NCBI GenBank assembly: GCA_016617855.1
Contig: JAECUM010003227.1
Coordinates: 1 to 64,000, forward strand
Direction: 5' to 3'
From: Megalonaias nervosa
Taxonomy: Eukaryota; Mollusca; Bivalvia; Unionida; Unionidae
DNA: 64,000 bases
Of the stretch, positions 31,238-61,408 are shown piece by piece. The translations under genes and the position numbers were made by a program. Under the pieces are notes generated by a model. It was not told the DNA's origin and made no database searches. It saw only the letters and a program-made list of their open reading frames with translations. Position 1 is the first letter of the stretch. Every line of letters begins with the position of its first letter.

Positions 31238-31473
31238 AGCAGCAGAGAGGGTGAACAGACCACTTTTTTCGCGAAAATAAAGATTCCTACGAAAGTTGAA
31301 AAATTAAGACAAAACAGGATTAAGCCAAATCAATTTTATTGATGTGTATTTTTCAAACATTAGGAATGTTCGTTTGCATCTATTGGTCGCACCCTCTCTG
31401 CTGTTCTGTGTGGTTTGCCTTATTGGTTAAGTGTAGGGTCCTTAATCGAGTAAATATTTACCAATGATCACCG

Positions 31474-31581
31474 CCGTGACATTGTCACGGGTGATGCTAC
31501 GGATGACAACAATCAGCCGTGATATAGTCACAGGTGACAACAATCAGATTGTGATGATAATCAGCCGTGATATAGTCACGG
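31474..31581. repeat. cluster of 17-bp palindromes in Element 2 TIR
   Basis: CCGTGACATTGTCACGG at 31,474-31,490, CCGTGATATAGTCACAG at 31,517-31,533 and CCGTGATATAGTCACGG at 31,565-31,581, embedded in repeated GTGACAACAATCAG. The inverse cluster is at about 61,105-61,175. Confidence 0.85.
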
Positions 31582-31724
31582 GTGACAACAATCAGAATGT
31601 GCCATTTAGAATCAGATTGTAACAATTATAAATAATAATGCTTACTACAAACGATATATGGACACTTACTCAGTTTTTTTAATTTCTCGAGAAATATAAA
31701 AATATTAATTATTTTCACAACAAA

Positions 31725-32086
31725 ATGATCATCGATAATAAAGGTAAACAACATTACTTCATTTATCCTGTGACCATGATCGAATTCAGGTGCATCAACG
31801 ATGAGATTGTACCTGTCATTGGTGTTGAAAGTATTTTCAATGATGCTACTGATCATCGTGTTAGATTTATATTTAATAAAGAAATCCAGCGACGAAATTG
31901 TCTCCTCCGCAAATCTGAAGCAGATATAGAAAACAACATGGTAGACCACTTTCCTCCGAAGAAAAAAGTATGAGAAATACCGCAATAGAGGATGATATTC
32001 GCAGGGGAAAAGAGAGGGAAGAAAGAGAAGAACAAGAACAAGAACGAATAAGAAATTGCGAGAGAATATTTTATTGGAACTGTTGA
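31725..32086 (+). pseudogene. terminal small gene 1 (hypothetical), left copy, frameshifted
   Basis: Begins MIIDNKGKQHYFIYPVTMIE, beta-rich, 82 codons to 31,973. Then a shift in an A-run gives a frame of charged helix (GKEREEREEQEQ) to a TGA at 32,084. Inverse copy at 60,972-60,602. A truncated relative lies just inside Element 3 (about 45,425-45,590), so the gene belongs to the family's terminus. Function unknown. Confidence 0.5.
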
Positions 32087-32152
32087 TCTACTGGTGAATT
32101 TAATTTCCTTAATTGTCAAAGGCTGCAGAAGATATTTTTTTTTTTTATTTTC

Positions 32153-32389
32153 ATGATTGTGCCAATAAGATTGTCAAATTTGAATAAAATAATCAGCATC
32201 AACGTGGACAAACAAAATGAGGCTCAATGTGGAAATATTATTATAACGAAAGAACATTTTAAACAGTTGATGATACATTTTATCGCATCACAGCGAAATC
32301 TTGACATGAAAATAAAACAAATAAAATCAATCAAGAAAGACATTAATAAAACCTCTAGGCGACTATCACGGATCATACGAGACCTGTAA
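32153..32389 (+). CDS. terminal small gene 2 (hypothetical, 78 aa), left copy
   Basis: Charged, lysine-rich helix (QRNLDMKIKQIKSIKKDIN) ending RRLSRIIRDL. The inverse copy (60,520-60,302) keeps the frame with few changes, so the frame may be under constraint. No family recognised. Confidence 0.5.
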   Translation: MIVPIRLSNLNKIISINVDKQNEAQCGNIIITKEHFKQLMIHFIASQRNLDMKIKQIKSIKKDINKTSRRLSRIIRDL

Positions 32390-32395
32390 CACAGT

Positions 32396-32412
32396 CAGTG
32401 ACTATGTCACTG
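32396..32412. repeat. 17-bp palindrome CAGTGAC-TAT-GTCACTG
   Basis: A perfect 7+3+7 palindrome 3' of terminal gene 2. It is a variant of the CCGTGAC family in which both arms changed together. Confidence 0.8.
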
Positions 32413-32467
32413 AGTTGATAAGATCAGAATACAACGGTTAATTGACAGCGCTGAGACTTCTATGGTC

Positions 32468-32535
32468 GATGAGGAATTGCTCCATATCATTATTATTTAT
32501 ATATAAAAATGAAAATATGGCGCGATTCCTCTTCG
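32468..32535. terminator. 3' hairpin, GCGCCATAT arm class
   Basis: GATGAGGAATTGCTCCATAT pairs with ATATGGCGCGATTCCTC across an AT-rich loop. It lies about 60 bp 3' of the primase-helicase stop. The right-arm counterpart at 60,157-60,223 has a perfect 20-bp stem. A transcript 3'-end function is inferred. Confidence 0.6.
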
Positions 32536-32695
32536 ATGATTTATCAGGGATAGAAGGTTTATCTGATCAATCTGAGGGTTACAAACGCAAACATTTATTC
32601 ATGTCCAAACATACTGAACCAATTATTGATGCTCCATATGTGGAATTTTAGTATTTTCATGTGCTGAGGATTGCTATTATCACCCGTAATGTTGT

Positions 32696-32922
32696 CCGTG
32701 ACTATGTTACGGCGGATATCTGTATCAATGATATTATCATCATTGATTTTATCATCGTCATCGCTGTCTGTAGCAATGCTACAGATGAAATCTTCAGTGT
32801 AGTAATGATCACCGGCTTCATTATCACTAAAATCATCATCAATGATTTCATCATCGCAGAAATCTTCTGCAACATTATTACAATCAATCACAGCGGAATC
32901 TTTCGCCGTAGCATCACTACGG
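32696..32922. repeat. three palindromes inside the primase-helicase acidic tail
   Basis: CCGTGACTATGTTACGG (32,696-32,712), CTGTAGCAATGCTACAG (32,768-32,784) and CCGTAGCATCACTACGG (32,906-32,922). The homologous point in the Element 3 gene (about 45,785-45,815) has only about eight codons where this copy has about eighty. Confidence 0.85.
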
Positions 32923-35900
32923 ACAATGATATCATTACCGCCATGAAATCCTTGACAATCGTTGTAGTATTCGATCCAACGCGAATCACCAATTAAGTCT
33001 GACTTAACCCATACGGGATAAGTAAGTGTACAGCCTGATCTTGCAGTGTTATGTTTATCATTCGCTGTCAAAGAAGCACCAAATCCCTTATAGATCAGTT
33101 TGATCTTCTCCATAACATTTCCTGTTGTGATTTGTTTATTTCGAATTCTCGTTTCAGGAAATATACTACTCCAATTTTTCAGTAGTTCGTTGTATTCCGA
33201 TAATAAACCTTTATCAACAATAATATTCTCGATGAGCATTCTTAAATCAGTCCTGATACCGTAACGCTGTTACGCGACGAATCATCAGGAACAATATCAG
33301 GCAAATTCAGTATTGTCAAAAAACTCCTTATCGCGTTAAGTTTTCCACGAGGACTTATATCAGAACGAAACATTCTGGCGTCAATCGCCTCTCCGTTATT
33401 GATTTTATCGACAATTACTCGTTGAGCACGTTTCATTTGCTATGAATTATTATACAACTGCTCAACTTGTTCCGCTGGTAACTTTCCAACATCACTCTGG
33501 AACATATTATTCAAGAATAATTTCTTTGCCTGGTACGGTTCTAACTGCTCACCATGATAATCATGGGGATTGTATTTATAATATTTAGGACTGTTTTCAC
33601 GCGTCACAATCGGAGATTGTTTTATTCTGTCACCGACGCTTGTTTTCAAAATATCATCAACAACAGGATTATTTGCTATTTGTTTGTCATTTGTTTTTTT
33701 ATGCTATTTTTTCGTTTCCATGTTTCGTAATCATCTACAGGGGTTTCAGTGATTGTGTAACCAGTATTTTTCATCATCGTTACCAGTCTCGGCGTGAAAT
33801 ATATTTTAAAATTATTGTCGTCGATGATATCATTGAGATATGCAAATCCGTATGGAAGTAATAATTCCCCTGCATTAGGACATTTTAACAATTTTATTCT
33901 GTCGTCGAGTAATCGTTCACGATGAACAACGACCTTCGTTATTTCTTCACGATTTATCTGAAGTTTACAATCGCGTTGTTTTCTTGTTGCCGAATAATGA
34001 ATTTCCTTAACACAACGAAACCGATGAATCGCCTGCTTGGTTGCTTCAACTGATCCTATTTCCTCAGAGAATACATACATGATGTTGAATCGTTCATCAA
34101 CGATACTGACCCCAGCTTCAAGTGTGTGGTTGAATATTACAACGTCATAATTGTCAAACGCAGTATCTATACTACTAAAGTCCAACTTCTTTTGTGTTGA
34201 ATCACTATCAGCATGATAGTATCTAACACGGTAACCATGATGCTGTAGTTGTTTTGCCAGATTCTCCACAGAATAATTCGTTTTATGTTTGTTGTGAGTA
34301 AATACAGCTATTTTGTTTCTCGTGACATCGTCAGTAGCGATGCTACCGAAGACTTTATTACGGTTTAACCGCTCTAACAGATTCAGTAGATTGCTCTTGT
34401 GTGATGTTTCAACGATGAATTTCTTGTCATGATCCGGTTTAACATCATTGATGATGAATTTCATCGATGACCGTCCCATCTGGTCTCTGAATAATATCAA
34501 ATCATCTTCGTCAGCATCAGCATCTAAGACGATCAGTCGTTTACATGTTTTTACCAACCCAGCAAATTTCTCCCAACGATCTTTACTATGCTGAACTGAC
34601 GAGAACTGTTGTCGTCGTATTCCATGCCACTCATCGACGATCAACACGTCTGGAACACCTTTTATTCTGTGTAGCGATCCCCACTGAACAACCACACGTC
34701 TCCGATCATCAGACTTAAATACAATATCACCTGTGATATCAGAATACGATTCTATTCCATGATTAGATTTTACTTTTTTCTGTAAATGTCTTTCGATAAC
34801 TAATAACAGCCACAGACTGATGTGGTGCTAATGAATCCCAAGCTGCTTCTGATTTTCCCATCCCACACGCTGATCCATCGAGATAGTCTTCGTCAGGGAT
34901 TATTTTACAACCAGGACCACCTTCATGAGCTGGTAATGCAGTATGCAAAAAGTCTGGATGGCGTTCTCTGAAATATCCAGAATAATGGCATTTACGTCTC
35001 GCTGCTATCACATACTTGATATATTTCTTATCGATGCTTCCTGATTCATCTATTATTTGGGTTATTACAGGATTAGACGATTCTCCGTCGATTACTTTGA
35101 ATTTGTTCGTCAATATCTCCATCGAGGGGAATAGTTATTTGTTTTCCAGTACTTCTCGGACAAACTATCGAATAATGATCATCGTTGATGAATACGAGGC
35201 AATTATCACATTTGTCCTCGATGAAGTCTCTGACATAATTATATCCATGACGACGCTCGCAAATGTTGCAGTGATGTCCTGGTCGTCTCGATATTGTAGC
35301 TCTGTTTTGAGATACGTTAACGATACCGATTAATTGATCAGGTTCTCCTGTCAATGCCTGAGAAATGCGTTCAATGTCTTCTGTGGAAATTTTGTCACAA
35401 CCCGATGATTTTGTCGTTGATTTCATCGAGGTCGCATTTCACATATTGAGGCTGAATCGAAGTTGGACATGTTAATAATTCAGATGCAGTAATATCACCA
35501 GCAGAATATATTAGTTTTTTTACCTACCGTATTTTTACCTGGTTTATGCGATCGCGTTTTATTCAACTTGATGCTGTAAAGAACAGCTTGACGATCAATG
35601 CTCCAATCTGGGTTTTTCTCGTCTGCTACTCGTTTCGTTAAATCCTGTTGTTGATCAAAACTGACCAACGTTGATTTACAAAGAATATGATAGCCGCTAT
35701 TTGTTTCAAACACAAATACACTATCACGTGGACAATCACACAATTGCGAGAAGTAATCGATGATTTCTTCGATGCTGATTTGCTTATTTGTTTGCCTTAT
35801 TTCAGCTTCTCCATGACCATGACGATATGTTACTCTCTCACGAACATATTTTGTATCAAGATCAAATACTGGATATCTCAATCTGAATTTTGGAATTATT

Positions 35901-36303
35901 TCAGTCACAGATGATTGTCCAATAAATTCACCAGCGAAACGATTAAAATCTTCATCGGACACAAACACGTAGAATTTATCGAAATGTTGTATAATTATTC
36001 CTCGATGTAATTTTTTATGTTTGTTACCAAGAACAGTAAAATTATTATTGGCACTTTCTTTCGTTGGATGCCAAATAACATCACTGAACGAATTTAGATA
36101 CAGCGAAGAATACTTGTTGAGATACCAGTAACCGTATTTGGCAATATCGGTTAGCTCATCTTGTGGAGTTGTTTCGAAAAGTTCATTTACATTCTCGTGT
36201 GGACCATCAAGGATTTCCTCGTCGAGACGATCCTATTATTCATCTTCGGATATTTCTACCAGGGGTTCTACCGCTGGAATACTCGATGCTACAGAAACAG
36301 CAT

Positions 36304-36320
36304 CCGTAACGATATTACGG
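36304..36320. repeat. palindrome CCGTAAC-GAT-ATTACGG in primase N terminus
   Basis: It lies in frame in the primase-helicase N-terminal region and encodes part of MTRNIVTDAVS. The Element 3 homologue has an unrelated serine/threonine stretch here. Confidence 0.75.
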
Positions 36321-36544
36321 GTCATCGGACAGTCACATGGGAAAAGTGTGCAGAATAAATCACATTCATGTTCACAATTAAATTTCTCATTATTATATAT
36401 ATCACCTGTAGGGACTTCGATTGTTATTATTTTTTCAGTCATTATAGTATCAATTATTTATCGAATTGATTATTAATATTATGTCCAAATTATAATGGTA
36501 TTAGTTTTACTAATAATATTTGAACATAAAATATAATCATATAA

Positions 36545-36673
36545 ATGTCAGTCTTAATCGGGATGAATAAATGTAAGTGGCTTCGACAGGGATCAACCGA
36601 GATATGTGGTAGAAAATGTTTCAGGGATTTATGCAGCCTACATCATTTTATCTCAACAAAAAAAAAAAAAAAG

Positions 36674-36708
<35 letters not shown>

Positions 36709-36977
36709 ATTCAACAAGACCAAAACCGGGTTTGGTCTGTGGAAAAGGTGTACGAAATTTTTATCTGATTTGTTCAGATTGTGGTGGTGATAAATACCGG
36801 AAGTTGATTTCGTATCACAATACAAGAACACCGAAATATTGGGTGAAAAATGAAAAACCTCCGACCGTCGAAGAATTTCTTCAACGATATCAAAATAAAG
36901 ATGTCATCCGCCGTGACATAGTCACTGATAATGTTACGGCTGACGATTCCACAATCGATGATACAAGATTTGTTTGA
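36545..36977 (+). pseudogene. zinc-ribbon protein, left arm copy, disrupted by long A tract
   Basis: ATG at 36,545 (AATCATATAAATG). CKWLRQGSTEICGRKCFRDLC is followed by an A-rich tract of about 48 bp (36,659-36,706) that shifts the frame. The second half reads CSDCGGDKYRKL and ends DDTRFV. The right-arm copy (40,976-40,572) has only a 22-bp tract and is open throughout. The family (CxWL..S..IC...C, H, then PKPC..CG, CxxCG..KYR) has four members in Elements 2 and 3. It may bind DNA or RNA. Transcribed away from primase-helicase across a shared 100-bp AT-rich spacer. Confidence 0.6.
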
Positions 36978-37014
36978 CTAATCTGAGACCTCTATCCCTG
37001 ATAAATCATCAATG

Positions 37015-37896
37015 AGGAATCGCGCCATATTTTCATTATTATATAATAAATATGATGATATGGCGCGTTTCCGCATCGACCATAACGATGTTATGGAACA
37101 GTTATTTGACAGCGCCGAGACTTCTATCATCGATGGAGAATCACCACATTTCCATAATAAATAATAAATGAATGTACCGATTCTCCAACCACGATTTATC
37201 AACGACCATAACGATGTTATGGAACAGTTATTTGACTAATCTGAGACCTGTATCCCTGATAAATCAGGGTTGCGGAATCGCGCCATATTTCCATAATAAA
37301 TAATAAATGAATGTGGCGATTCCGCATCGACCATGGCGATGTTATGGAACAGTTATTTGATAGTGCTGAGACTTCTATGGTCGTTGTGAAATCGGTACAT
37401 ATTCCATATAAATATAAATGAATGTACCGATTTCACAGTGATGATAGAACAGTTATTTGACAGCGCTGAGACTTCTATCATCGATGCAGAATCACCACAT
37501 ATTCATAATAAATATAAATGAATGTGGTGATTCTCCAACCATGATTTATCAACGACCATAACGATGTTATGGAACAGTTATTTTGCCATGATTTTATCAC
37601 GGATTGAAGACCTCCGTCATCGATGGGGAATCACCACATATTCATAATAAATATAAATGAATTTGGTGATCCCCAACCAACATAATGATGTTGTGGAACA
37701 GTTATTTGACTAATCTGAGACCTCTGTCATCAATGCGGAAACGCGCCATATTTTTATTATTATGTAATAAATATAACGAAATGGCGCGTTTCCGCATCGA
37801 CGATAGAAGGTTTATCTGATCAATCTGAGACCTCTATCATCGATGCAGAATCACCACATTCATTTATATTTATTATGAAAATGTACCGATTCTGCA
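37015..37896. repeat. array of eight hairpins between convergent genes, left arm
   Basis: Stems start at about 37,015, 37,137, 37,273, 37,386, 37,486, 37,626, 37,736 and 37,845, each 50-63 bp with an AT-rich loop (AATAAATATAAATGAATG). Three arm classes occur: GCGCCAT, CACCACAT and GGTACAT. Some hairpins are hybrids with one arm from each class (second, third, eighth). Linkers of 50-80 bp share CAGTTATTTGA(C), CTGAGACYTCTAT and a short palindrome CCATAACGATGTTATGG. The inverse array is at 39,653-40,535. Confidence 0.85.
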
Positions 37897-38761
37897 ACTC
37901 TGATTTATCAGGGACCATAACGATGTCACCGATATCACTACGATTAATTGATTTATTTACTTTTCTTAGAAACCTTCGTTCTTCATGTGCTGCAATTTCA
38001 CTTAATCGTTTATTTTCTTTGTTGAGTGAATCATACAGTTTAGATAATTCATAATCATTGTTAGTCAGCCGCCGATACTCACCTTTTAAAAGGACAACAT
38101 TTCTATCAAGTCCATTTATGATCTTGTTTTTCTCTGTTTCATCAGCATTTACCAATTCTCTATTTCGTTCGTCATTCTGCTTTATTTCCTTCTTTAAATT
38201 TTCTATGGTTGTCTTTAACGTTTCAATGGTTTCCTTTAATGATTTATTTTCCTCATAGAATGGTTTATTATCAGATTTTAGTTTTATTATTTTTTCTTTT
38301 ACTGCGGTTATAGATTTACTATCTTTAGTTAGTTTCGTTTCATAATTTTCTTGTTGTTCCAGCAGATAATCATTCTGCTGTTTCAGACGCTCTATCACTA
38401 AATGATTTTCATAATTTTCCTGTTTTAACTGTTTCACATCACCGCTATGTTTAATTGCATTGTCAAGATCTTTCTTGATGATATTAATTTTATTTTCCTT
38501 TCTTACTAGCTTTTCTTCGAGTAATTCGTGTTTTATTGACATGATTTTATATTTCTCATTAATTTCATTAAAATCCTTTTGCAGAGTCTGACAACTATCA
38601 CAACCAGATGATTTTTCACTCTGATCACTATAACTCCAAATACGATATAATTTTGACATTCCAATGCCATATTTCTTAACAACATCCGACACCCTTACTT
38701 TGCCTCGTAACGACTTAATGTCATTGATGTCTTCTTGTATTAGTTCGCGCTTTTTATTCAT
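37820..38761 (-). CDS. HTH plus coiled-coil protein, left arm copy
   Basis: Start chosen at ATG 38,761 (MNKKRELIQED). Residues about 12-40 form a helix-turn-helix-like segment (VRVSDVVKKYGIGMSKLYRI), then a CDSC pair, then about 200 residues of strong coiled coil (ERLKQQNDYLLEQQENYE type). The last 27 codons are translated hairpin DNA, so the natural stop has probably been lost. A DNA-bound, dimerising regulator or recombination accessory protein is plausible. No specific family recognised. The promoter region is the palindrome centre. Confidence 0.6.
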   Translation of the reverse strand: MNKKRELIQEDINDIKSLRGKVRVSDVVKKYGIGMSKLYRIWSYSDQSEKSSGCDSCQTLQKDFNEINEKYKIMSIKHELLEEKLVRKENKINIIKKDLDNAIKHSGDVKQLKQENYENHLVIERLKQQNDYLLEQQENYETKLTKDSKSITAVKEKIIKLKSDNKPFYEENKSLKETIETLKTTIENLKKEIKQNDERNRELVNADETEKNKIINGLDRNVVLLKGEYRRLTNNDYELSKLYDSLNKENKRLSEIAAHEERRFLRKVNKSINRSDIGDIVMVPDKSELQNRYIFIININECGDSASMIEVSD

Positions 38762-38859
38762 TATTATTCTTCCGGAATGAAAAAAAATTCTTATTACTGG
38801 ATTTAAGTTCATTTATGCTCCGGAATATCCTCGGAATATTTTCGGAAAAAAGAAAATAT

Positions 38860-38940
38860 CTCACTCCTTTTTATAGTTGCGGTAATTTTACCGTTTGTAA
38901 TTACCTCGAGCAACTGCCTACCAACTATAAAAAGGAGTGA
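38860..38940. promoter_or_regulatory. centre of the Element 2 palindrome with paired TATA elements
   Basis: CACTCCTTTTTATAGTTG (about 38,865) and its inverse CAACTATAAAAAGGAGTG (about 38,922) flank a short asymmetric loop containing GGTAATTTTACC. TATAAAAAGG faces outward on both sides toward the two HTH/coiled-coil genes. Confidence 0.7.
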
Positions 38941-38969
38941 CATATTTTCTTTCCTCCGAAACAATAATA

Positions 38970-39729
38970 ATGAATAAAAAGCGCGAACTAACACAAGAAG
39001 ACATCAATGACATTAAAACACGAATTACTCGAAGAAAAGCTAGTTAAAAAAGAAAAGAAAATTAATATCATCAAGAAAGCTCTTGACAATGCAACTAATC
39101 ATAGCGGTGATGTGAAATAGTTAAAACAGGAAAATTATGAAAATCATTTAGTGATAGAGCGTCTGAAACAGCAGAAAGATTATCTGTTGGAACAACAAGA
39201 AAATTATGAAACGAAACTAACTAAAGATAGTAAATCTATAACCGCAGTAAAAGAAAAAATAATAAAACTGAAATCTGATAATAAACCATTCTATGAGGAA
39301 AATAAATCATTAAAGGAAACCATTGAAACGTTAAAGACAACCATAGAAAATTTAAAGAAGGAAATAAAGCAGAATGACGAACGAAATAGAGAATTGGTAA
39401 ATGCTGATGAAACAGAGAAAAACAAGATCATAAATGGACTTGATAGAAATGTTGTCCTTTTAAAAGGTGAGTATCGGCGGCTGACTAACAATGATTATGA
39501 ATTATCTAAACTGTATGATTCACTCAACAAAGAAAATAAACGATTAAGTAAAATTGCAGCACATGAAGAACGAAGGTTTCTAAGAAAAGTAAATAAATCA
39601 ATTAATCGTAGTGATATCGGTGACATCGTTATGGTCCCTGATAAATCAGAGTTGCAGAATCGGTACATTTTCATAATAAATATAAATGAATGTGGTGATT
39701 CTGCATCGATGATAGAGGTCTCAGATTGA
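38970..39729 (+). pseudogene. HTH/coiled-coil gene, right arm copy, deleted
   Basis: Starts with the same MNKKREL codons at 38,970. It has lost about 62 codons covering the HTH segment and the CDSC pair, and has a TAG at about 39,118. The remaining coiled coil is open to 39,729. This copy cannot make the DNA-binding part. Confidence 0.7.
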
Positions 39730-40535
39730 TCAGATAAACCTTCTATCGTCGATGCGGAAACGCGCCATTTCGTTATATTTATTACATAATAATAAAAATA
39801 TGGCGCGTTTCCGCATTGATGACAGAGGTCTCAGATTAGTCAAATAACTGTTCCACAACATCATTATGTTGGTTGGGGATCACCAAATTCATTTATATTT
39901 ATTATGAATATGTGGTGATTCCCCATCGATGACGGAGGTCTTCAATCCGTGATAAAATCATGGCAAAATAACTGTTCCATAACATCGTTATGGTCGTTGA
40001 TAAATCATGGTTGGAGAATCACCACATTCATTTATATTTATTATGAATATGTGGTGATTCTGCATCGATGATAGAAGTCTCAGCGCTGTCAAATAACTGT
40101 TCTATCATCACTGTGAAATCGGTACATTCATTTATATTTATATGGAATATGTACCGATTTCACAACGACCATAGAAGTCTCAGCACTATCAAATAACTGT
40201 TCCATAACATCGCCATGGTCGATGCGGAATCGCCACATTCATTTATTATTTATTATGGAAATATGGCGCGATTCCGCAACCCTGATTTATCAGGGATACA
40301 GGTCTCAGATTAGTCAAATAACTGTTCCATAACATCGTTATGGTCGTTGATAAATCGTGGTTGGAGAATCGGTACATTCATTTATTATTTATTATGGAAA
40401 TGTGGTGATTCTCCATCGATGATAGAAGTCTCGGCGCTGTCAAATAACTGTTCCATAACATCGTTATGGTCGATGCGGAAACGCGCCATATCATCATATT
40501 TATTATATAATAATGAAAATATGGCGCGATTCCTC
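39653..40535. repeat. array of eight hairpins, right arm
   Basis: Inverse of 37,015-37,896 with the same order, arm classes and hybrid hairpins, so the hybrids predate arm duplication or were homogenised. Confidence 0.85.
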
Positions 40536-40571
40536 ATTGAAGATTTATCAGGGATAGAGGTCTCAGATTAG

Positions 40572-40976: not shown

Positions 40977-41078
40977 TTATATGATTATATTTTATGTTCA
41001 AATATTATTAGTAAAACTAATACCATTATAATTTGGACATAATATTAATAATCAATTCGATAAATAATTGATACTATA

Positions 41079-51645: not shown

Positions 51646-51649
51646 AACA

Positions 51650-52260: not shown

Positions 52261-53038
52261 TAAAAAATAATGTATATATATAGCTGTCTTAGCATTGACT
52301 CTGTCACTGCAGATTCTGTGATCAGTATTATACTGTCAGAATATTTTTCTGATTCTAAATAAAATCTGCAATTTTATTTATTTCTGCTGTTTCTGCCTTG
52401 TTGAAATATTATATTTTCAAGCCTCTTGACACAGTCAAGGCAGAACTATCTAGCAATGAATGCATGGATCGATATTATTCTGGTATATTCCGCCTACTAC
52501 AATGATACATGTAGTCTGCTGCGATCGATATGTGAAGCAGTTATGTACAATATCGGCCTATGATAGATTTATCTGTCCCATGATATAATATCACGGCTGA
52601 GGTTTCTATGTTTGTTTGAGGAAAGTATAATATATATTTTCTGCAATTAATACTTCCACATAGTTAAAATACCTGGACTGGAGAGATATTCAAGCATTAC
52701 GATTAGATTGTAGTACCATAACTGCTTGATTACTCTATCAGCGATGACAGAGTTATCTCCCTTGATTGTATATCACGAGGTGGAAACGTGAAAAATTATT
52801 CCGGCGGTGGTTTTCATAGGACGGTTATTTAGCGAATCTGAGACCGTTATCGTTAATAACGGATCGGTACATTCATTATATATTATTATGAAAATGTACC
52901 GATCAGTTATCAAATTCAGGCAAATTTTTATGAGGATTCTTATCACTGAATATAAATGTGTGGTCATGTATACGCAATAACAAAAAAAGGGAGACAACTA
53001 CTTGATTGCTCTATCAGCGATGACGGATTTATCTCGCT
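52261..53038. other. non-coding, with one hairpin
   Basis: AT-rich stretch holding the inverted-repeat partner (52,740-52,822), a hairpin at 52,862-52,904 and a direct repeat of CTATCAGCGATGAC (52,736 and 53,013). The small palindrome CTTGAC-ACA-GTCAAG is at about 52,426. No gene seen. Confidence 0.6.
52862..52904. terminator. 3' hairpin, GGTACAT class
   Basis: GATCGGTACATT pairs with AATGTACCGATC (12 bp) around an AT loop, 135 bp 3' of the homing endonuclease stop. Confidence 0.65.
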
Positions 53039-53539
53039 TCATTGTACATACCGGAACGTAATTTTTTGTTCGAATTTTTTCGAAAATGCTGATTTAGTTA
53101 TTTTTTCTTCAACACGTTGTACCGACCTCGAGTGAATACCAAAATATTTAGCAGCCGTGTTTATGGAATTAAAAATTCTCTCTTCACCAGTCTCTGTATT
53201 TATGGATATAACCGACCTCTTTTCAAACATTTTACATCTCCCAGTATTCCCAAATATATTATTCTGACTTGGTGTAACAACCCGGAGGTTACATAAATTA
53301 TTATCCTTTGGGTTTGAATTAATGTGATCAATTACAAGTACATCTTCGATGACCCCATGAAAACATTCGAATATGAACCTATGAGATAAATATCTTTTTT
53401 TTCCAATAGTAAATCTAAAATAACCAGTATTATCAACAGTACCGACTGATCTTTTTAATTTGCAATTTCTGATTACACCATCACAAGACGCTTCATAATT
53501 TTTAAATATTGGATGCTTAACAGATTCCTTTTGCTCCAT
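53039..53539 (-). CDS. HNH homing endonuclease with NUMOD1 helix, intact
   Basis: A 166-codon open frame, ATG in the context TATATATAAATG. N-terminal HPIFKNYEASCDGVIRN module, HNH core RFIFECFHG...VIDHINSNPKDNNLCNL, then SINTETGEERIFNSI and a NUMOD1-type HTH (INTAAKYFGIHSRS). It is free-standing with no intron core. Selfish spread between related viral genomes is the expected role. Related to 24,409-25,251 in Element 1 but clearly diverged, so acquired or inherited separately. Confidence 0.85.
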   Translation of the reverse strand: MEQKESVKHPIFKNYEASCDGVIRNCKLKRSVGTVDNTGYFRFTIGKKRYLSHRFIFECFHGVIEDVLVIDHINSNPKDNNLCNLRVVTPSQNNIFGNTGRCKMFEKRSVISINTETGEERIFNSINTAAKYFGIHSRSVQRVEEKITKSAFSKKFEQKITFRYVQ

Positions 53540-53857
53540 TTATATATAATATTTTTTGTCTAAATGATTATTTTGAAATCTGGCCAGATAGTCTTCAGCG
53601 GTTTTTATGGGAGATTTACCTGACGACTTCTTATCATAATATCGTTTCAGCTGTCTGTATCTTTTACTACCGCATTGCACACATAACCGTGTTTCTCCTC
53701 TGACTCCAACACCGCATCGTAAACACGGTTTCGGTCCTAGACTACCTTTTCGAAAGCTTTGCATGTGTTGGCCACAAAATTCATTTACGCATGATTTATT
53801 ACAAGGAAGAGAAAATCCAATCATAAGCCATCGGCATTTATTGTTTGTTTGAATCAT
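53540..53857 (-). CDS. zinc-ribbon protein (105 aa), intact
   Basis: ATG at 53,857 (ATATATATAATG). NKCRWLMIGFSLPCNKSC, H, PKPCLRCGVGV and CVQCGSKRYRQL give two zinc modules. Ends DKKYYI, abutting the homing endonuclease start. Fourth member of the zinc-ribbon family shared with Element 2. Confidence 0.7.
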   Translation of the reverse strand: MIQTNNKCRWLMIGFSLPCNKSCVNEFCGQHMQSFRKGSLGPKPCLRCGVGVRGETRLCVQCGSKRYRQLKRYYDKKSSGKSPIKTAEDYLARFQNNHLDKKYYI

Positions 53858-53907
53858 TATATATATAATTAAAGTTTAATTAAACATATATTTGCTTTAA
53901 ATATAGT
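53858..53907. promoter_or_regulatory. divergent AT-rich promoter region
   Basis: 50 bp between two divergent ATGs, nearly all A/T, with TATATATATAATTAAA and its near-inverse TTTAATTAAACATATATT. It likely drives both the zinc-ribbon gene and the replicase operon. Confidence 0.5.
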
Positions 53908-54120
53908 ATGGAGGAATTTGAGAGATTATCCATAATTGAACCTTCCACCGTCTCGGCGGGAGCAAGATTTGATCTTGACAAACTACCAAAATCTAAATTT
54001 AATTGTTCGATGCAAAATCTGGCTTTGATAAATAGTGATATAATCGATCGTATCCGTGAAGCAAGAAAGAATTTCGCAACGATGGTGCGGCTCATACTTG
54101 GTCGACATTCGGGATCATGA
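53908..54120 (+). CDS. small hypothetical protein (70 aa) upstream of replicase
   Basis: ATG at 53,908 (AAATATAGTATG). Ends in ATGA overlap with the replicase start at 54,117, so the two are translationally adjacent. Acidic N terminus, helical C terminus (IIDRIREARKNFATMVR). Unknown. Confidence 0.5.
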   Translation: MEEFERLSIIEPSTVSAGARFDLDKLPKSKFNCSMQNLALINSDIIDRIREARKNFATMVRLILGRHSGS

Positions 54121-57100
54121 ATATCATTGATTTTAGAATGAGTGACGAACGAGGTAAAAATATTATCAACTATCTCGACAATCAGCGATATATTATTTTA
54201 GTAAAATTTATTGTGCAGACAGATGATGACACTTGGATTATCCGTGATAAACGTGACCCTATACGGCTTCATACTGGAAATAATACTGTTACATTGAATA
54301 ACAAATCCAAACCAGGAATATTGACTGGTATTGATAAACCGAATTATGAACGAGAGTATCCTGTAACTGCAGTTATTTATGCGATATATCCGCTAAATGA
54401 TAAACCTAGCGTTAATGACCTCAAACCAATGAAATTGTCAAGGGGACTAAACTGCGTAGCTGAGAGAGTTACGGAACATTTCTCAAAAGCAATACGCGGA
54501 AACGGTTTAACTGATCTAAGACGTAAAAAAAAAATGCGTGGGCAGAAACAGTTAAAGATACCGGAGCATCTATTAGTGACGTTGCTAAGCTAGAAAAGAA
54601 ATTAAGATTTCCAATAACAGTAAAAACATTAACCGGAGAAATTTTGTACAAACCGAAATATATAAAAAATGGAACTCCTATAACAATCATTGATCATAAT
54701 GCACATGCATGGACTAACGCTGTAACAATATTTCCACGGGATAGAACCGTTAAATTTTTATAGCGATTATATATTCGACGCTATCAATGATATTAGTAAG
54801 AGTGACCCTGTATCTGTTTGGTTATTTCAGAGTTCAGATTCGTATTATGATCAGTTTGTAAGGCCTAACGGAGAAATTTATCGTGCAGAATCTCTCCACG
54901 AAAAAATGAAGAATCTTGCATTGAAATATAATTCTGATGATGTTGAAGTTGAACGATTATTGAATAATTGTTTTACAGTTCCATCGGTTGCTGCTCACTT
55001 TGCTCAAGAGAAAAATTCATGGAAACCGACACGATTAGAATTTCTTGAAGACATCCAGCATAGTTGTGTTGAATACGGACACGGCGGATTATGGAATACC
55101 AAATACGATTATAGCGATATTATATCGGTTGATATGGTAGCGTGTTATCCTGGAAGTTTTCTTGGATACGGACAATGTTCTGAATACTTTAAAAGATTCG
55201 GACATCCCACACACGAGATGACCAGAGTTGCGATAAAAGGACTCTTACCTGATTTTGATTTAACTGGATTTGCTTGTATAGAATCATTTGAGTTTTGCGA
55301 TGATCTGCATCCGATTATTTACGTTTGGTTTGGAAGACATTTCTCAGAAAAATATTGGGCTCCAATAGTGTTATTACGATACATGCTTGATACTGGGATG
55401 CTATTGTCGTTGAGCGTAAGTGAAGCTATTATATCATATCATCCGCAGAAACAAGTTTGGTTACTACAACCCCTGACAGAGTCAGATGATGAAAATCCTG
55501 ATATGATTGATCATGAAAATAAAGTTGTATAAGATCTCGGCAGAAAACTAATCGGTAAGTTTACTCAAGGAGGATCATATGATCATAAACGAATGTGTGC
55601 AAGATTAATTATGGATGATGCTGAACTCGATTTTATAATTGCTGATGCAACGGAAAAAAAAATACATTTATGAGTCGGAGTAGTGCTTTTTTATCAGACG
55701 GGTCTTAATTAGGTACAATCGTGAGCTATACTGATGGTGAGTCACCGCAATTTACTCATTTAAGATCTTCTATGCTCGCGTACGTTTCCATAAATTTATT
55801 ATCGATGATAAATAGATTTCCTCGTTACGCGGTTAGAGTTGCCACGGATTCATTTTATATAAATAAAGCGTATTTAGATTTGCTAAAACCGCTACTCGGT
55901 AATGACGAATGGGGATCATGGAGAATAAAACAAGAAAATATACTTGATTATTCAGAATCTGCAGACGTTGAAATCAAGGAAATATATTACAGCAATCATA
56001 ATCAAATATTAACATCGACAGCACCATCTGTGTTTGATCCTGTGGCCAGACATAAAACCGTTTATCTCAATGGATCTGGAGGTTCTGGAAAAACAACAGG
56101 TGCCATTGAATTATTTCGCCGTAGTTTGAAGAACTCCGTTGATATTATTGTTCTGACACCTACACATAGACTAGCCAGAGAAATAAACGAACGAGGAGTA
56201 AAATCTCAGACTTATCATGGTTTCTTCAGATGGTGCGGGGATACGTGGACACCTGAGCGAATGGGTGAGAAATATATACCCCGGATTATCATCTGGGGAT
56301 GAGATTTGTACGGTGTCGTTAGAAACACTAAAAATATTTCTTAATTGGTTATTAACGAAAAATATTGTGAAAATTATGTGCGGCGATCATGGTCAACCAC
56401 CACCTTCCGTTGGGCAGTCTTCGCACGAGTGGTTAAAAACGTTTGTTGATTATTATGAAGAGATAACCGATGGTCATAGAGCTGTTGATGAACCTCTGAA
56501 AGAATTTAAAAGATTAATCAGACTACAGCCAGATAGAATACCATGTGAGATAATGCGTGAAATAATTCCAGAAACTCCTGTAAATGATTTTTGGAATTTA
56601 TGGAGACCAAATGATTTAATAGTTGCGAGTAGAAAAATAGTTCGTGATGAATTGCAAGAGAAATTATTTCTGTTACATAAAGAAAAGTTTTCAAATCTAC
56701 ATGTACCATTGTGCTATCGCCCAGCAGATACTCGACGACAGAATATTGAAGTTGAAATTCCAGGAACAAATGAAAAACAAAATCTTGTATTGAATGATAT
56801 TGTTTTGGTTGATGTTGATGTTGTTGAGAGCGCGTTGATTATGGATAAAACTCCATGGAAGTTAGGATACGCTATAACGATTCATTCGTCACAAGGACTA
56901 ACTATTACTGATACAAATATCTGGATTGTCGATGATAGAATCGAATGGTCAAATTTAGTTTATCTCGCAGTGTCCCGAGTCAGAAGAATATCTCAACTAC
57001 GCAGGGTTATTATGAATGCTACAGAAATTAATAATCAAACTGCTAGCGACAACAACGAACTTGTTGTTGGCGTAATAAGAAAATAAAAACTATTTGGTTA

Positions 57101-57362
57101 TAAGCAATGTGATAAAAAAAATAATCGCGATTTTGATATTGATACTAAATTAATTATGACACTAAAACAACGACAGAATAATCATTGTGCAAGTTGTAAC
57201 TGTAATATGCTATGGGAATATTCGAGTAATAATGCAAGACAGTTCACCGTGGACAGAATTAATAGTGATCTTAGTCATACACGTGATAATGTCATATTGA
57301 CATGTCTTGAATGTAATCGACGTCGGGGCGCTGGACGCCCTGGTGCTAGTTTACAAAAGTGA
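54117..57362 (+). pseudogene. replicase: divergent family B polymerase - SF1 helicase - HNH, broken
   Basis: In order: an N-terminal domain (54,117-54,760) ending near ITIIDHNAHAW; polymerase motif A as ISVDMVACYPGSF (D76 of the frame at 54,906); a GKFTQGGSYDHKRM motif-B-like block (about 55,555); motif C VATDSFYI (about 55,840); SF1 helicase P-loop GSGGSGKTT (about 56,072), GDHGQPPP (about 56,385), and IHSSQGLTI with LAVSRVRR (about 56,880-56,990); in-frame TAA at 57,084; then an HNH-like zinc module CASCNC...DRINSD..H..N..LTCLECN to 57,362. Breaks are in A9 (54,526), near 54,760, 55,530, 55,655 (A9) and 56,250. PolB-helicase fusions of this kind are rare in memory. The polymerase call is moderate, the helicase call strong. 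Confidence 0.65.
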
Positions 57363-58338
57363 ACGCGGTGGTAACTGTGTGTCTTCAGGAATTGCTTGTA
57401 ATTGTTCACGCACAAATCCACGTTGAGGAGCATTTGAATCCAGTCTGTAGATGGCAGGTCCACCCGTAGATCTAACCACGCTAGAAATTTTATGTGTGGT
57501 CACACTCCAGATAGGATCAGTTGCTCTTTTTTTTACCCCCTTCAAGTTCACCAGGTTCATATAAATACCTTACAGTCACATTACCTAACACTGGCTGTTT
57601 TGAAAAGTCACGTCGTTGTCCGTAGCCATCGCTACGGGGTATATGTTTCTTTGTAATTGCATTAATAGGTTTCATAGAAGTTGCACGAGTAATTTCTTTA
57701 TTTAACGCAGCAATCACACTTGGTAATCTTGCAACCCATTCACGAGATCTCATGTCACTCTGAATTATTTCCTTTGCATACTGGTATCCAAATAACCGCT
57801 CGGCGAGTGTTCGATTAAATCGTTCAACTATTGCCTGATCACGATGAATTGTAATGTGTCCTCGCCTGATTTTGACGCTATGTTGTTTCATCAGCGATGA
57901 TACTGCACCAAGAAATTCTTTGCCAGGATCAACTTGTAGCAACTGTGGCCATAGTAATGGCCCTCGTTGATAAATTCGTTCAAACGCAGATGCAACTTCA
58001 GATGTTGTTTTTGTTGATAATGGTTCCGCTTCTTTATATCTACTTGCAACATCAACGACAATTAACGCGTATTTGTATGTGCGTGATTGACGTCCACGTG
58101 TTTTAATAGTATCATGTGGTAAAAACAAAATATCTGCTTGATGAACTTCATTGGGAACGCTGACATCAAAATACACGTACTGAATTTTTTTAGGTGGATG
58201 TAGATATATTTGCCATATTGCTTGTCGTGCTAACCACGCTGCAGCAACAGCACGTGAGACTTTTGCTGCTTCAGCAAGTTTACTAATCGCTGCTCTGCCC
58301 TTCCAATATCCTCTTGGGTTATAATAAATGGACCCCAT
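57351..58338 (-). pseudogene. DDE integrase of Element 3, one frameshift near C terminus
   Basis: ATG at 58,338 (GTTATATAACTATTATAATG on the coding strand). N-terminal HTH-like SKLAEAAKVSRAVAAAWL; catalytic core with D69 (HQADIL), D137 (LLQVDPGKEF) and E172 (IVERFNRTL). A T8 run at about 57,533 breaks the frame. The C-terminal segment DPIWSV...GPAIYRL..RGFVREQL continues in another frame to 57,351, tail-to-tail with the replicase. No chromodomain, unlike Element 1. It inserts the linear genome and would explain the 5-bp duplications. Confidence 0.85.
57620..57637. repeat. 18-bp palindrome inside integrase gene
   Basis: CCGTAGC-CATC-GCTACGG, perfect arms, in frame in the region after the DDE core, encoding part of PRSDGYGQR. 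Confidence 0.8.
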
Positions 58339-58358
58339 TATAATAGTTATATAATTAA

Positions 58359-58857
58359 TTACCCAGCCCCTAGCATTATTTTACCTTTCATAGCAGATTT
58401 CACTAGAAAACTAGCGAGTTTTTCTCTGAGAAATTTATCAGGTATAGAATTTAACGCATGAATCAATTTCACATCTGCGAGATGCCGTTGTTGTAAATCT
58501 TTGCTTTTATACGCAACATCATGAACATAACACGCTTGATCAATCTTATTTATTGGATACTCTCCAGGTCGCGGTTGATCTTGATCATCAAGTCGAATAT
58601 CAAGTCGAGTTCCAGGACCACAATAATTATTATCCTGGTAAATGTTTTTCTCCGGGATACTTCGCCCATGGAACCCCGGGCAATTTTCCCAACGAAGCAG
58701 CGATATCACCTCCTGTCTTTGTGCTAGACGAAGTAAATTTGTATTTTTTTGTGCTACACTTTTCACACTTACCTGTCAGTGCGCGTTTTTTATTTTTTGT
58801 TATTATTGTTGTTAATCCAGGGGTGGGTGCCTTGCATCGAACACAATATAAATTCAT
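58359..58857 (-). pseudogene. zinc-ribbon - PLA2-like protein, one frameshift
   Basis: Start taken at ATG 58,857 (MNLYCVRCK). The zinc ribbon YCVRCK...GKCEKC is followed by a LGKLPGVPW linker. The frame changes near 58,632, and the PLA2-like domain follows with the calcium loop YCGPGT and catalytic H-D in YVHDVAY (H82-D83 of the frame at 58,766). Parvovirus-type PLA2 domains help virions escape endosomes. Polintons and adintoviruses commonly carry one. The gene precedes integrase on the same strand with a 20-bp gap. In Element 1 the same domain is fused to integrase. Confidence 0.75.
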
Positions 58858-58869
58858 ATTATTTATCAT

Positions 58870-59550
58870 ATGGATATAATTGACTTTTCGGCGACACAAA
58901 AACAAGAACCAGTCAAGCATCACCCAGCGCTACCGAATTCTATTAGAATGATAATAATAGGTCCATCTGGAAGTGGGAAGACGCAATTATTGCTTAATTT
59001 GATAATGAGATGGCTCAAATGGGATAAATTATATTTAGTAGCTCCATCCGTGGATGATCAACGATGTTATGAAGTGCTTAAAGATTTTAATGAAAATGCA
59101 AAATCATTATATGAAGACAGTGACAGTGATGGGGTCAGTGTTATTGATTTTATCACTGATATTGATGAAGCGCCATCTGTAGATGACCTTGATGGACGTA
59201 TTAATAATTTAGTAGTATACGACGATGTCATGCTGGATAAACAATCAAATCCAGCTCGGATATTTTCCAGAGGCAGGCATAAAAATACAGAGGTGATTTA
59301 TGTTACCCAACGTTATACACAAATACCTAAAGTGATCAGAGACAACTGCAATATTTTGGTTGTATTTAACGGAGTTGATAATCATACGCTGCAAAATATT
59401 TATTCTACTTGGTGTTCAGGGGACATGGACATGATCAAATTTAAAAATTTCTTTGCCCACGCGCAAGCTACCCCGTTTGGTTTTATAACAATAAATTTGC
59501 ACGATCCCAGGTCGAGATATCGTAAAGGACCTGATAAAATATTTGGATAA
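58870..59550 (+). CDS. A32/FtsK-HerA-type packaging ATPase, intact (226 aa)
   Basis: Open from ATG 58,870 to TAA. Walker A GPSGSGKT at residues 31-38, Walker B LVVYDDV at about 114-120, and the YVTQRY sensor at about 144-149. Full length for the family. Divergent from the zinc-ribbon/PLA2 gene with overlapping start regions. It is one of few intact genes and lies partly in the TIR, so the left TIR holds its C-terminal copy. A packaging motor without visible capsid genes is odd. Confidence 0.85.
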   Translation: MDIIDFSATQKQEPVKHHPALPNSIRMIIIGPSGSGKTQLLLNLIMRWLKWDKLYLVAPSVDDQRCYEVLKDFNENAKSLYEDSDSDGVSVIDFITDIDEAPSVDDLDGRINNLVVYDDVMLDKQSNPARIFSRGRHKNTEVIYVTQRYTQIPKVIRDNCNILVVFNGVDNHTLQNIYSTWCSGDMDMIKFKNFFAHAQATPFGFITINLHDPRSRYRKGPDKIFG

Positions 59551-59782
59551 AACCACAGCAGCAGAGAGGGTGGACTGACAAAAATGACGCGCACGAGCAC
59601 CGCATAGCATTTACAAACACAGATGTCATGAAAAGTAACAGCGTAAATAACCCACGTAGAGAGAATCTCAATTCGGTTACAGATTCTGGTTTAACGTTAT
59701 TGACCCTATATTTTCTGCCTTATTTAATATGATTTCATGTTTAAATCTTTTGGTCGAAACCAATTTGTAGTGTTCTGCTGCT
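59000..59782 (-). repeat. Element 3 right TIR
   Basis: Inverse of 44,618-45,412. An inverted copy of the tip motif AGCAGCAGAGAGGGTG is at 59,557-59,572. At the extreme end one tip copy has lost about 7 bp relative to the left. Confidence 0.9.
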
Positions 59783-60096
59783 CGGCGAAAGATTCCGCTG
59801 TGATTGATTGTTATAATGTTGCAGAAGATTTCTGCGATGATGAAATCATTGATGATTATTTTAGTGATAATGAAACCGGTGATCATTATTACACTGAAGA
59901 TTTCATCCGTAACATTGCTACAGACAGCGATGACGATGATAAAATCAATGATGATAATATCATTGATACAGATATCCGCCGTAACATAGTCACGGACAAC
60001 ATTACGGGTGATAATAGCAATCCTCACCACATGAAAATACTAAAATTCCACATATGGAGCATCAATAATTGGTTCAGTATGTTTGGACATGAATAA
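59783..60096 (+). pseudogene. acidic C-terminal end of the right-arm primase-helicase, severed by Element 3
   Basis: Resumes at CGGCG and continues the Asp/Glu-rich tail (DFCDDEIIDDYFSDNETG) to WFSMFGHE and a stop, matching 32,908-32,595 inverted. It includes palindromes at 59,907-59,923 and 59,979-59,995. Confidence 0.8.
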
Positions 60097-60156
60097 ATGT
60101 TTGCGTTTGTAACCCTCAGATTGATCAGATAAACCTTCTATCCCTGATAAATCATC

Positions 60157-60223
60157 GATGAGGAATCGCGCCATATTTTCATTTTTATATATAAATAATA
60201 ATGATATGGCGCGATTCCTCATC
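60157..60223. terminator. 3' hairpin with perfect 20-bp stem
   Basis: GATGAGGAATCGCGCCATAT pairs fully with its inverse ending GATTCCTCATC, 60 bp after the primase-helicase stop. Counterpart of 32,468-32,535, which has mismatches. Confidence 0.75.
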
Positions 60224-60301
60224 GACCATAGAAGTCTCAGCGCTGTCAATTAACCGTTGTATTCTGATCTTATCAACTCAATGACATAGTCACTGACTGT
60301 G

Positions 60302-60520
60302 TTACAGGTCTCGTATGATCCGTGATAGTCGCCTAGAGGTTTTATTAATGTTTTTCTTGATTGATTTTATTTGTTTTATTTTCATGTCAAGATTTCGCTG
60401 TGATGCGATAAAATGTATCATCAACTGTTTAAAATGTTCTTTCGTTATAATAATATTTCCACATTGAGCCTCATTTTGTTTGTCCATGTTGATGCTGATT
60501 ATTTTATTCAAATTTGACAA
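60302..60520 (-). CDS. terminal small gene 2, right copy
   Basis: Frame conserved with 32,153-32,389. The start differs (SNLNKIIS) because the upstream bases diverge. Lysine-rich helix, function unknown. Confidence 0.5.
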   Translation of the reverse strand: MSNLNKIISINMDKQNEAQCGNIIITKEHFKQLMIHFIASQRNLDMKIKQIKSIKKNINKTSRRLSRIIRDL

Positions 60521-60601
60521 TCTTATTGGACAATCATGAAAATAAAAACAAAATATCTTATGCAGCCTTTGACAATTAAGGAAATTAAATTCACCAGTAG
60601 A

Positions 60602-60972
60602 TCAACAGTTCCAATAAAATATTCTCTCGCAATTTCTTATTCGTTCTTGTTCTTGTTCTTCTCTTTCTTCCCTCTCTTTTCCCCTGCGAATATCATCCTC
60701 TATTGCGGTATTTCTCATACTTTTTTCTTCGGAGGAAAGTGATCTACCAAGTTGTTTTTCTATATCTGCTTCAGATTTGTGGAGAAGACAATTTCGTCGC
60801 TGGATTTCTTCATTAAATATAAATCTAACACGATGATCAGTAGCATCATTGAAAATACTTCCAATACCAATGTACCAATGACTAGTACAATCTCATCGTT
60901 GATGCACCTGAATTCGATCATGGTCACAGGATAAATGAAGTAATGGTGCTTACCTTTATTATCGATGATCAT
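60602..60972 (-). pseudogene. terminal small gene 1, right copy, frameshifted
   Basis: Begins MIIDNKGKHHYFIYPV like the left copy, then shifts within about 40 codons. The charged-helix end is recognisable to 60,602. Confidence 0.5.
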
Positions 60973-61104
60973 TTTGTTGTGAAAATAATTAATATTTTTA
61001 TGTTTCTCGAGAAATTAAAAAAACTGAGTAAGTGTCCATATATCGTTTGTAGTAAGCATTATTATTTATAATTGTTACAATCTGATTCTAAATGTCACAT
61101 TCTG

Positions 61105-61175
61105 ATTGTTGTCACCCGTGACTATATTACTGCTGATTGTTGTCACCCGTAGAATCACCCGTGACTATGTCACGG
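61105..61175. repeat. palindrome cluster in Element 2 right TIR
   Basis: CCGTGACTATGTCACGG at 61,159-61,175 plus degenerate copies with GTTGTCACCCGTGACTATAT. Inverse of 31,474-31,581, with one copy partly lost. Confidence 0.8.
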
Positions 61176-61408
61176 CGGTGATCATTGGTAAATATTTACT
61201 CGATTACGGACCCTACACTTAACAAATAAGGCAAACCACAGAGCAGCAGAGAGGGTGCGACCAATAGAAGCAAACGAACATTCCTAATGTTTGAAAAATA
61301 CACATCAATAAAATTGATTTGGCTTAATACTGTTTTGTCTTAATTTTTTAATTATTGTAGGATTCTTAGTTTTTCGAAAAAAGTGGTCTGTCCACCCTCT
61401 CTGCAGCT

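Follow-up and report, generated by a model that had tools for sequence, protein, structure and literature searches.

The 64,000-nucleotide (nt) stretch of Megalonaias nervosa (Bivalvia, Unionidae) DNA considered here, positions 1 to 64,000 of contig JAECUM010003227.1 in assembly GCA_016617855.1 and hereafter the window, holds two nested Polintons that carry many palindromes of 17-18 base pairs (bp), some of them inside coding sequence. How does so short a sequence come to lie at many places, genes included, in a virus-like transposon? Our data show a unit of discrete size that is dispersed, present in some copies of a site and absent from others, nested within older units, selected for reading frame in genes, and located at sites whose empty alleles resemble one of its arms. 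How the palindromes move we infer: probably, a very short repetitive unit is proliferating inside one Polinton lineage via template-switch copying guided by short homology.

A short palindrome in two nested Polintons

The palindromes of the window lie in the following elements, the outer of which is interrupted by the inner.

31239..44618, no strand: outer element ("Element 2"), left part, with terminal sequence, helicase gene, coiled-coil open reading frame (ORF) and inverted second arm
44619..59782, no strand: inner Polinton ("Element 3"), identified by its 6-bp target duplication CGGCGA and Pfam matches
59783..61408, no strand: outer element, right end, split off from the rest by the inner element; inverted match to 31237-32916, adjoining the CGGCGA duplication

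An earlier note on this DNA had named palindromes in both elements, and each was found where the note had placed it. The sites are:

31474..31490, no strand: palindrome near the outer terminus, non-coding; right-end copy 61159-61175
31517..31581, no strand: two imperfect copies (31517-31533, 31565-31581) in a short tandem duplication
32396..32412, no strand: palindrome CAGTGAC/GTCACTG; right-end copy 60279-60295
32696..32712, minus strand: palindrome in the acidic linker of the outer helicase C-terminus; right-end copy 59979-59995
32768..32784, minus strand: palindrome in the same acidic linker; left copy perfect, right copy 59907-59923 different at two bases of one arm
32906..32922, minus strand: palindrome at the linker start; inverted copy 44599-44615, which abuts the inner-element insertion point
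33259..33275, minus strand: palindrome in the outer helicase, matched in the inner copy by a degenerate sequence of the same length, hence decay and not insertion
34319..34348, minus strand: 27 bp extra (9 residues) in the outer helicase, including most of palindrome 34332-34348
36304..36320, minus strand: palindrome in the N-terminal part of the outer helicase region; inverted copy 41201-41217
36911..36927, no strand: palindrome between helicase and coiled-coil ORF; inverted copy 40622-40638
37080..37602, no strand: three CCATAAC/GTTATGG copies and one imperfect copy in a local repeat array; mirrored at 39947-40469
45376..45393, minus strand: private insertion of an 18-bp palindrome into the left ATPase copy; frame kept, +15 bp
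46504..46520, minus strand: palindrome that makes the inner helicase gene 12 bp longer than its outer counterpart
52293..52440, no strand: two decayed copies (52293-52309, 52424-52440) in the inner element; matching positions in fetched stretches L147 and L132
57620..57637, minus strand: 18-bp palindrome in the integrase gene; +15 bp in frame

A lenient scan of the window (arms like C-C-R-T-R-R-C with at most one mismatch, loop of 3-5 nt) returned 30 matches, all within 31,474-61,175, whereas 20 second-order Markov copies of the window gave a mean of 0.15 and a maximum of 1; composition-matched sequence does not yield such palindromes. Perfect 7-bp palindromes of any sequence numbered 6, 3 and 4 in three element pieces, against 0.38, 0.50 and 0.97. 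Palindromy of any sequence is thus only modestly over chance in the window, and the extreme feature is the shared arm sequence. The earlier count of at least a dozen included repeated copies: those in 32,903-38,542 and 39,007-44,618 are the same copies twice, because these segments are the arms of a fold-back, and about 14-17 are independent. With a broader arm model, 15 matches fall in the outer arm plus terminus (7.3 kilobases, kb) and eight in the inner element (15.2 kb), some of the latter weak (e.g., 49,143 and 56,280) and possibly due to chance. The same model finds none in Element 1 of the window (17,595 bp), as the earlier note had claimed, and none in the left flank (12.5 kb), the spacer or the right flank. 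A covariance model built from 14 window sites recovers these sites with expectation (E) values from 5e-4 upward, and all its matches outside both elements have E >1.

In the window's own assembly (2.19 Gb, 54,709 contigs), one variant of the palindrome has 574 matches with at most one mismatch, compared to 105 for the reversed pattern. We fetched 22 stretches around listed matches; 21 of them have translated matches to the inner element, and they carry 6.8 palindromes per 10 kb. L151 has short translated matches, and its link to the lineage is mainly DNA common to other stretches; L149 has no translated match to the inner element, though ~0.3 kb around its palindrome is common to four stretches. 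The palindromes are dispersed at many unrelated loci and appear to proliferate within one Polinton lineage. Elsewhere, the palindrome pattern has five matches in viral contigs and occurs in at least 120 stretches of other genome contigs, which are taken as chance, their hosts being scattered bacteria and archaea.

The unit itself is 17 bp long, with 7-bp arms and a 3-nt loop (7-3-7), and a minority are of 18 bp (7-4-7). In the 19 stretches L130-L148, whose loci were each selected for an exact CCGTGACNNNGTCACGG, 54 of the perfect palindromes whose arms reach 7 bp or more have a loop of 3 (8.4 expected), and the arms are exactly 7 bp in 48 of the 54. Loops of 1 are also in excess (28 against 8.4); 14 of these have an arm of 8, so that one base pair closes the loop and the span is again 17 bp. 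The remaining loop lengths from 0 to 12 were observed 3 to 13 times, with 6.2 to 8.4 expected. The dominant sequence, CCGTGACATAGTCACGG, accounts for 17 of the 57 perfect copies and the CCGTGAC arm for 24, both numbers being raised by ascertainment through the choice of loci. The other arms, to which this bias does not apply, are CCTTGAC, CCGTGAT, CCTTGAT, CCGTAAC, CCCTGAT, CGTTGAC and single cases.

A common core is TGAC-N3-GTCA, and such a symmetric, lineage-specific motif could be a binding or processing site (for a dimeric regulator, packaging, replication or an RNA signal) held by selection. Yet the two arms vary together, which is unexpected for a fixed protein site. Among 14 window sites picked for pairing, three of five covariation measures exceeded all 500 shuffles, the other two being reached in 25 and in 332. 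In a set of 21 sites chosen without using the two inner pairs, with second-arm, right-terminus, tandem-duplication and local-array copies left out beforehand, both inner pairs were complementary at 13 (permutation mean 4.3), a value reached in 1 of 20,000 shuffles. A scan with the left arm only gave 59 arms in the elements, of which 35 pair at 6-7 of 7 positions, 6 at 4-5 and 18 at 2-3, while the 10 arms outside the elements pair at 1 to 4. One pair of copies is a candidate for single-event arm correction: between 32768-32784 and 59907-59923, two differences in one arm make an imperfect palindrome perfect. It is the only candidate for quasi-palindrome correction that we found, most orthologous arm differences being uncompensated.

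Filled alleles, empty alleles and reading frame

If the palindromes are insertions, some copies of their sites should lack them. For 59 of 71 perfect palindromes (L130-L149 plus the window elements), both 80-bp flanks recur at another place in the set, a second copy in the window counting as such. Fourteen of 19 orthologous clusters have at least one empty allele, with clusters of window sites only left out and alleles of <75% mean flank identity ignored; the positions are therefore not fixed in all copies. In one cluster, nine copies are filled and two empty, which favors a functional site. However, presence/absence at most clusters, decay after insertion and positions in unrelated genes make selected binding or processing sites a very improbable explanation, and the operator-site reading was rejected as the main account on the first two grounds.

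Six sites were rechecked by direct alignment with L150 and L151 included. In the packaging ATPase, 18 bp at 45,376-45,393 stand against 3 bp in the right copy (59,019-59,021) and in L132, L138, L142 and L150, and the insert is also missing from the Element 1 homologue; the net gain of 15 bp keeps the frame, as the earlier note had read it. The palindrome at L139:7397, in a Pif1-like gene, is absent in all five other copies. In gene p50612, one filled copy (L136:4263) faces four clean empties (L140, L145, L146, L150), and none of 11 further copies, which are not cleanly alignable, shows a palindrome. The integrase palindrome reported at 57,620 is present, and the site is empty (3 bp) in L138 and L143, short in L139 and occupied by a different palindrome in L142. 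L150 has a related form, 6 bp shorter, and the idea that this palindrome is private to the window was rejected. The non-coding site L131:7157 is filled in L131 and L146, empty in six copies and unclear in L144 and L137; a single gain there was dropped as an account, since L146 also has the palindrome. At L134:3957, which was not mapped to a gene, L134 and L131 are filled and seven copies are short. The direction of change rests on single filled copies versus several empties in an unrooted comparison.

The helicase sites 34,332 and 46,504 were compared between the two window elements only. At 46,504-46,520 the outer copy falls 12 bp short of the inner one, in agreement with the earlier note. 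Of the palindromes that this note described as missing from the inner element, that in the outer helicase holds up, with 27 bp more in frame at 34,319-34,345, while the palindrome at 36,304 shows no clear length gain. Overall, the earlier interpretation of these palindromes as mobile insertions is supported, and neither shuffled sequence nor related copies refute it.

Insertion length depends on context. Twenty-nine sites have an empty allele no longer than 6 bp. Of these, the 11 in genes, defined by tblastn matches to inner-element proteins, all show only gains of 12, 15 or 18 bp. Only 3 of the 18 non-gene sites show multiples of three alone, and the rest show 11, 13, 14, 17 or 23 bp or mixtures (Fisher P = 1e-5 by site; P = 2.5e-4 for seven independent gene positions, six plus the ATPase). 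The in-frame bias is thus present in genes and not outside them. The more general claim that length differences are multiples of three applies to palindrome insertions in genes but not to every gap: alongside gaps divisible by three, the helicase alignment has gaps of 1, 1, 1, 1, 2 and 5 bp in the outer row and two of 1 bp, with a further 34 at the end, in the inner row. The 871 indels of 6-40 bp between copies, among which one event is countable in several pairs, have a local peak at 12 bp (127, against 56 at 11 and 35 at 13). A palindrome with at most one mismatch overlaps 41 of these 127, compared to 5.5% of random places, and 41 of 65 indels of 24-30 bp, compared to 13% in the control.

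Position within the codon is also biased. In 29 gene cases from fetched copies, many of them orthologous, the first palindrome base falls at codon position 2 in 22, position 3 in six and position 1 in one. The window gene sites start at position 3 in eight of nine, and a rule of always starting there was rejected because position 2 dominates in the other copies. It is codon position 1 that is avoided, the register that would read TGA, TAA or TAG on both strands.

Some palindromes are nested. They interrupt older palindromes in L139:5818 versus L148, in L144 versus L148 at the L137:3692 site, and in L134 versus L135 at the L136:4128 site, and different palindromes occupy one place in different copies, e.g., at the L131:6742 site and at integrase 57,620. 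A site in gene p54117 has alleles of 5, 8, 15, 17, 23, 35, 47 and 59 bp, the longer ones largely built of 12-bp units plus a final 5-mer matching the last unit. Such steps can be read as 4-residue repeats, and the linker of the outer helicase is acidic and repetitive; a 12-bp (4-codon) linker repeat that expands and contracts by ordinary instability, with palindromy as a by-product, would account for both. However, insertions of 17/18 bp also stand singly at unique sites, both in non-coding DNA and in the ATPase, integrase, Pif1-like and p50612 genes, which speaks against repeat instability as a full account. In addition, enrichment centres on loop 3, and adjacent units are too different for fresh duplications. 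Insertion is thus not confined to places beside an existing unit, as for a minisatellite or codon repeat, although the one-site arrays fit in part, and we regard repeat instability as an improbable explanation for the palindromes as a whole.

The host elements and a second hairpin family

The inner element has the hallmarks of a Polinton/Maverick: terminal inverted repeats, a 6-bp duplication (CGGCGA at 44613-44618 and 59783-59788), an rve integrase and a packaging ATPase, the latter in both terminal repeats. The integrase match scores 32.0 bits, slightly below the Pfam cut-off of 32.6. It also carries a helicase, an HNH nuclease, polymerase-like ORFs, AAA/Pif1-like helicase ORFs and a PLA2-like protein. 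The name polymerase-like is our own reading, as Pfam gives no match, and so is Pif1-like, the Pfam match being AAA_19. The HNH/NUMOD1 endonuclease gene lies at 53039-53539 and has matches in 13 of the 20 stretches L130-L149. Searches of viral contigs with the ATPase, the integrase, the helicase alignment and the helicase N-part returned no relatives, the terminal-sequence pattern had no match in viral contigs, and a PDB sequence search with the integrase had none.

The outer element is a fold-back centred on 38,543-39,006, in which 32,903-38,542 and 39,007-44,618 are inverted and 99.1% identical. Its termini (31,237-32,916 and 59,776-61,409) are inverted copies at 93.3% identity, gaps included. 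The two 7.3-kb arms are thus near-identical left of the inner insertion, at 99.1%, and the termini beyond it reach only 93.3%. The element ends in GCAGCAGAGAGGGTG and is flanked by ATTCTA and ATTCTG, a 5-of-6 duplication. Repeats and duplication are present, and no integrase or ATPase gene was seen in it. A composite terminal repeat at both ends of one element was replaced by nested insertion as the description of the locus, with the inner element interrupting the right arm. The outer helicase gene extends from the element body into the terminal repeat, and an acidic linker of roughly 80 residues in its C-terminus, which the inner helicase lacks, carries three palindromes. The insertion point of the inner Polinton abuts the palindrome at 44,599-44,615, a single case that supports no claim of preference. 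Short inner inverted copies of the element-end sequence CACCCTCTCTGCTG lie ~170-240 bp from the termini (31239-31405, 44619-44855). Parts of many fetched stretches (L130, L134, L151 and others) are similar in translation to the left flank (1-12537), which may hold a decayed Polinton fragment, without mini-palindromes.

A near-perfect fold-back is a shape that assemblies can create, and hairpins might likewise provoke sequencing errors or fold-back chimaeras. Nevertheless, the palindromes recur in 22 stretches on other contigs, orthologous sites are common to divergent copies, and the frame bias differs between genes and non-genes, so that an assembly or sequencing artefact is scarcely credible.

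The same two elements also contain a second hairpin family, with arms of ~16 bp, matched variation (GGAATCGCGCCAT, GAATCGGTACAT, GAATCACCACAT) and AT-rich loops of about 21-39 nt:

32466-32536, 37009-37904 (array), 45641-45699, 49797-49861, 50306-50358, 52856-52910 and 60155-60225: second hairpin family

Some of these lie directly downstream of stop codons (both helicases), recalling the 3'-end hairpins of mimiviruses and marseilleviruses described in the available text of PMC5413956.

How the palindromes may spread

The empty alleles bear on how a palindrome enters a site. A new copy replaces few bases (2-6 bp at clean empty sites) and adds mostly 11-17 bp, and inspection of filled and empty alleles revealed no constant target duplication, only the replacement of a few bases. 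At 19 hand-picked empty sites, one per cluster, the summed best match to an arm is 90, against 76.1 for random DNA (standard deviation 3.4). This resemblance fits entry through short homology. The possibility that the outer arm bases are an inverted copy of the target was rejected, as empty sites often lack them (e.g., L134:3957).

We therefore favor, as the probable route, template switching, in which DNA synthesis during element replication or break repair would jump to a palindrome already present, guided by a few bases homologous to one of its arms, copy it and return. Hairpin self-templating would keep the arms matched, and it is our proposal for why the variants CCGTGAC, CCTTGAC, CCGTAAC, CCGTAGC and CGTTGAC are each internally complementary. 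Within genes, mainly copies that keep the frame (net +12, +15, +18) would survive, the register with an in-frame stop being avoided. Most likely, the element derives no function from the palindromes; it tolerates them as selfish-like insertions, and they persist, making linkers longer.

Several observations weigh against this account. Empty sites match an arm to a moderate degree (usually 4-5 bases of 7, with a range of 3-6), and part of this match may be what remains of a palindrome since lost, should some empties be losses. Replaced length varies, which leaves the breakpoints imprecise, and neither an insertion event nor a donor was seen. Arm changes within orthologous sites are mostly uncompensated decay (e.g., L130 versus L140), and self-templating is therefore not needed at every site. 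There is a mild excess at loops 5, 8 and 9 as well (12, 12 and 13 against 7.8, 6.2 and 6.6), 86 of the 127 twelve-bp indels overlap no palindrome, and the 15-bp L140 allele at the p54117 site is out of frame with the others. Finally, the fetched loci were all chosen for carrying one palindrome variant.

A dedicated enzyme, either an HUH/RAYT-like transposase or a nuclease such as the element's HNH protein, might instead insert the hairpin at half-site-like targets; discrete size, one dominant sequence (CCGTGACATAGTCACGG), targets that resemble an arm and the HNH/NUMOD1 protein encoded by the lineage would all suit it. REP elements, for example, are linked to RAYT transposases. However, no Pfam match to a RAYT or HUH transposase was obtained among the 20 element ORFs scanned, nothing ties the HNH/NUMOD1 protein to the palindromes, and replacement is variable with no target duplication seen. 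Both Polintons have flanking 6-bp duplications, while the palindrome insertions, unlike miniature inverted-repeat transposable elements, do not. Insertion by such an enzyme is a genuine, though rather unlikely, alternative, and template-switch copying remains our preferred explanation.

Among known systems, the earlier note had named Rickettsia palindromic elements as the nearest parallel. These are palindromic repeats dispersed in unrelated genes, in frame and apparently tolerated by the protein, and they are about 150 bp long with a conserved ORF (PMC10969869). The parallel holds for dispersal and for in-frame insertion in protein genes, seen here at 11 of 11 gene sites. It does not extend to membership, because the present units, of 17-18 bp, in a eukaryotic Polinton and self-nesting, have no room for an ORF. 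It is fair to say that they act like Rickettsia palindromic elements, far smaller, without belonging to them. In Volvox and other green algae, organelle and nuclear genomes carry hairpin-forming palindromic repeats of 10-100 nt and of related sequence, which have been proposed to be selfish DNA and are described as enlarging introns and intergenic regions, a block lying in an rRNA module (PMC2670323); by contrast, our palindromes have a fixed 7-3-7 size, lie in frame in protein genes and are found in one transposon lineage. REP elements are short dispersed hairpins of 20-40 bp (PMC3733652), prokaryotic and extragenic, whereas many copies here are intragenic and no linked transposase gene was found among the 20 ORFs scanned. 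Template switching or quasi-palindrome correction generates identical inverted-repeat arms in one event, also inside genes (PMC8604942, PMC8794818), but as described it reworks or creates an inverted repeat locally and does not itself spread one sequence widely. In nematomorph mitochondria, inverted repeats occur within protein genes and template switching is proposed; these repeats are perfect, up to 284 bp long and not described as one dispersed family (PMC6649704). In a literature search, with most subscription journals outside its scope, no report of such mini-palindromes in Polintons stood among the matches listed, nor in the available text of PMC5413956, PMC11814242, PMC5182062 and PMC3630058.

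A bolder possibility, which we consider tentative and on balance doubtful, is that the 17-bp palindrome is a genetic parasite of the virus-like transposon and among the smallest dispersing DNA units known. It would spread in a homing-like manner, by hairpin copying at a nick or break in an arm-like half-site that is made by the element's HNH nuclease or arises at stalled replication. Repeated self-insertion would then follow because its own arms are half-sites, and, if this is true, self-insertion creates hypervariable, frame-preserving linkers in the proteins of the element.

The palindromes represent a size class of dispersing DNA that lies outside the scope of usual repeat finders, within the genes of a eukaryotic virus-like transposon, and the empty sites provide direct evidence for insertions this small. 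They constitute a natural system in which many copies record the spread of a hairpin, the matching of its arms and the filtering of its insertions by purifying selection on reading frame. They also suggest how viral-type proteins may come by flexible linkers, four or five residues at a time.

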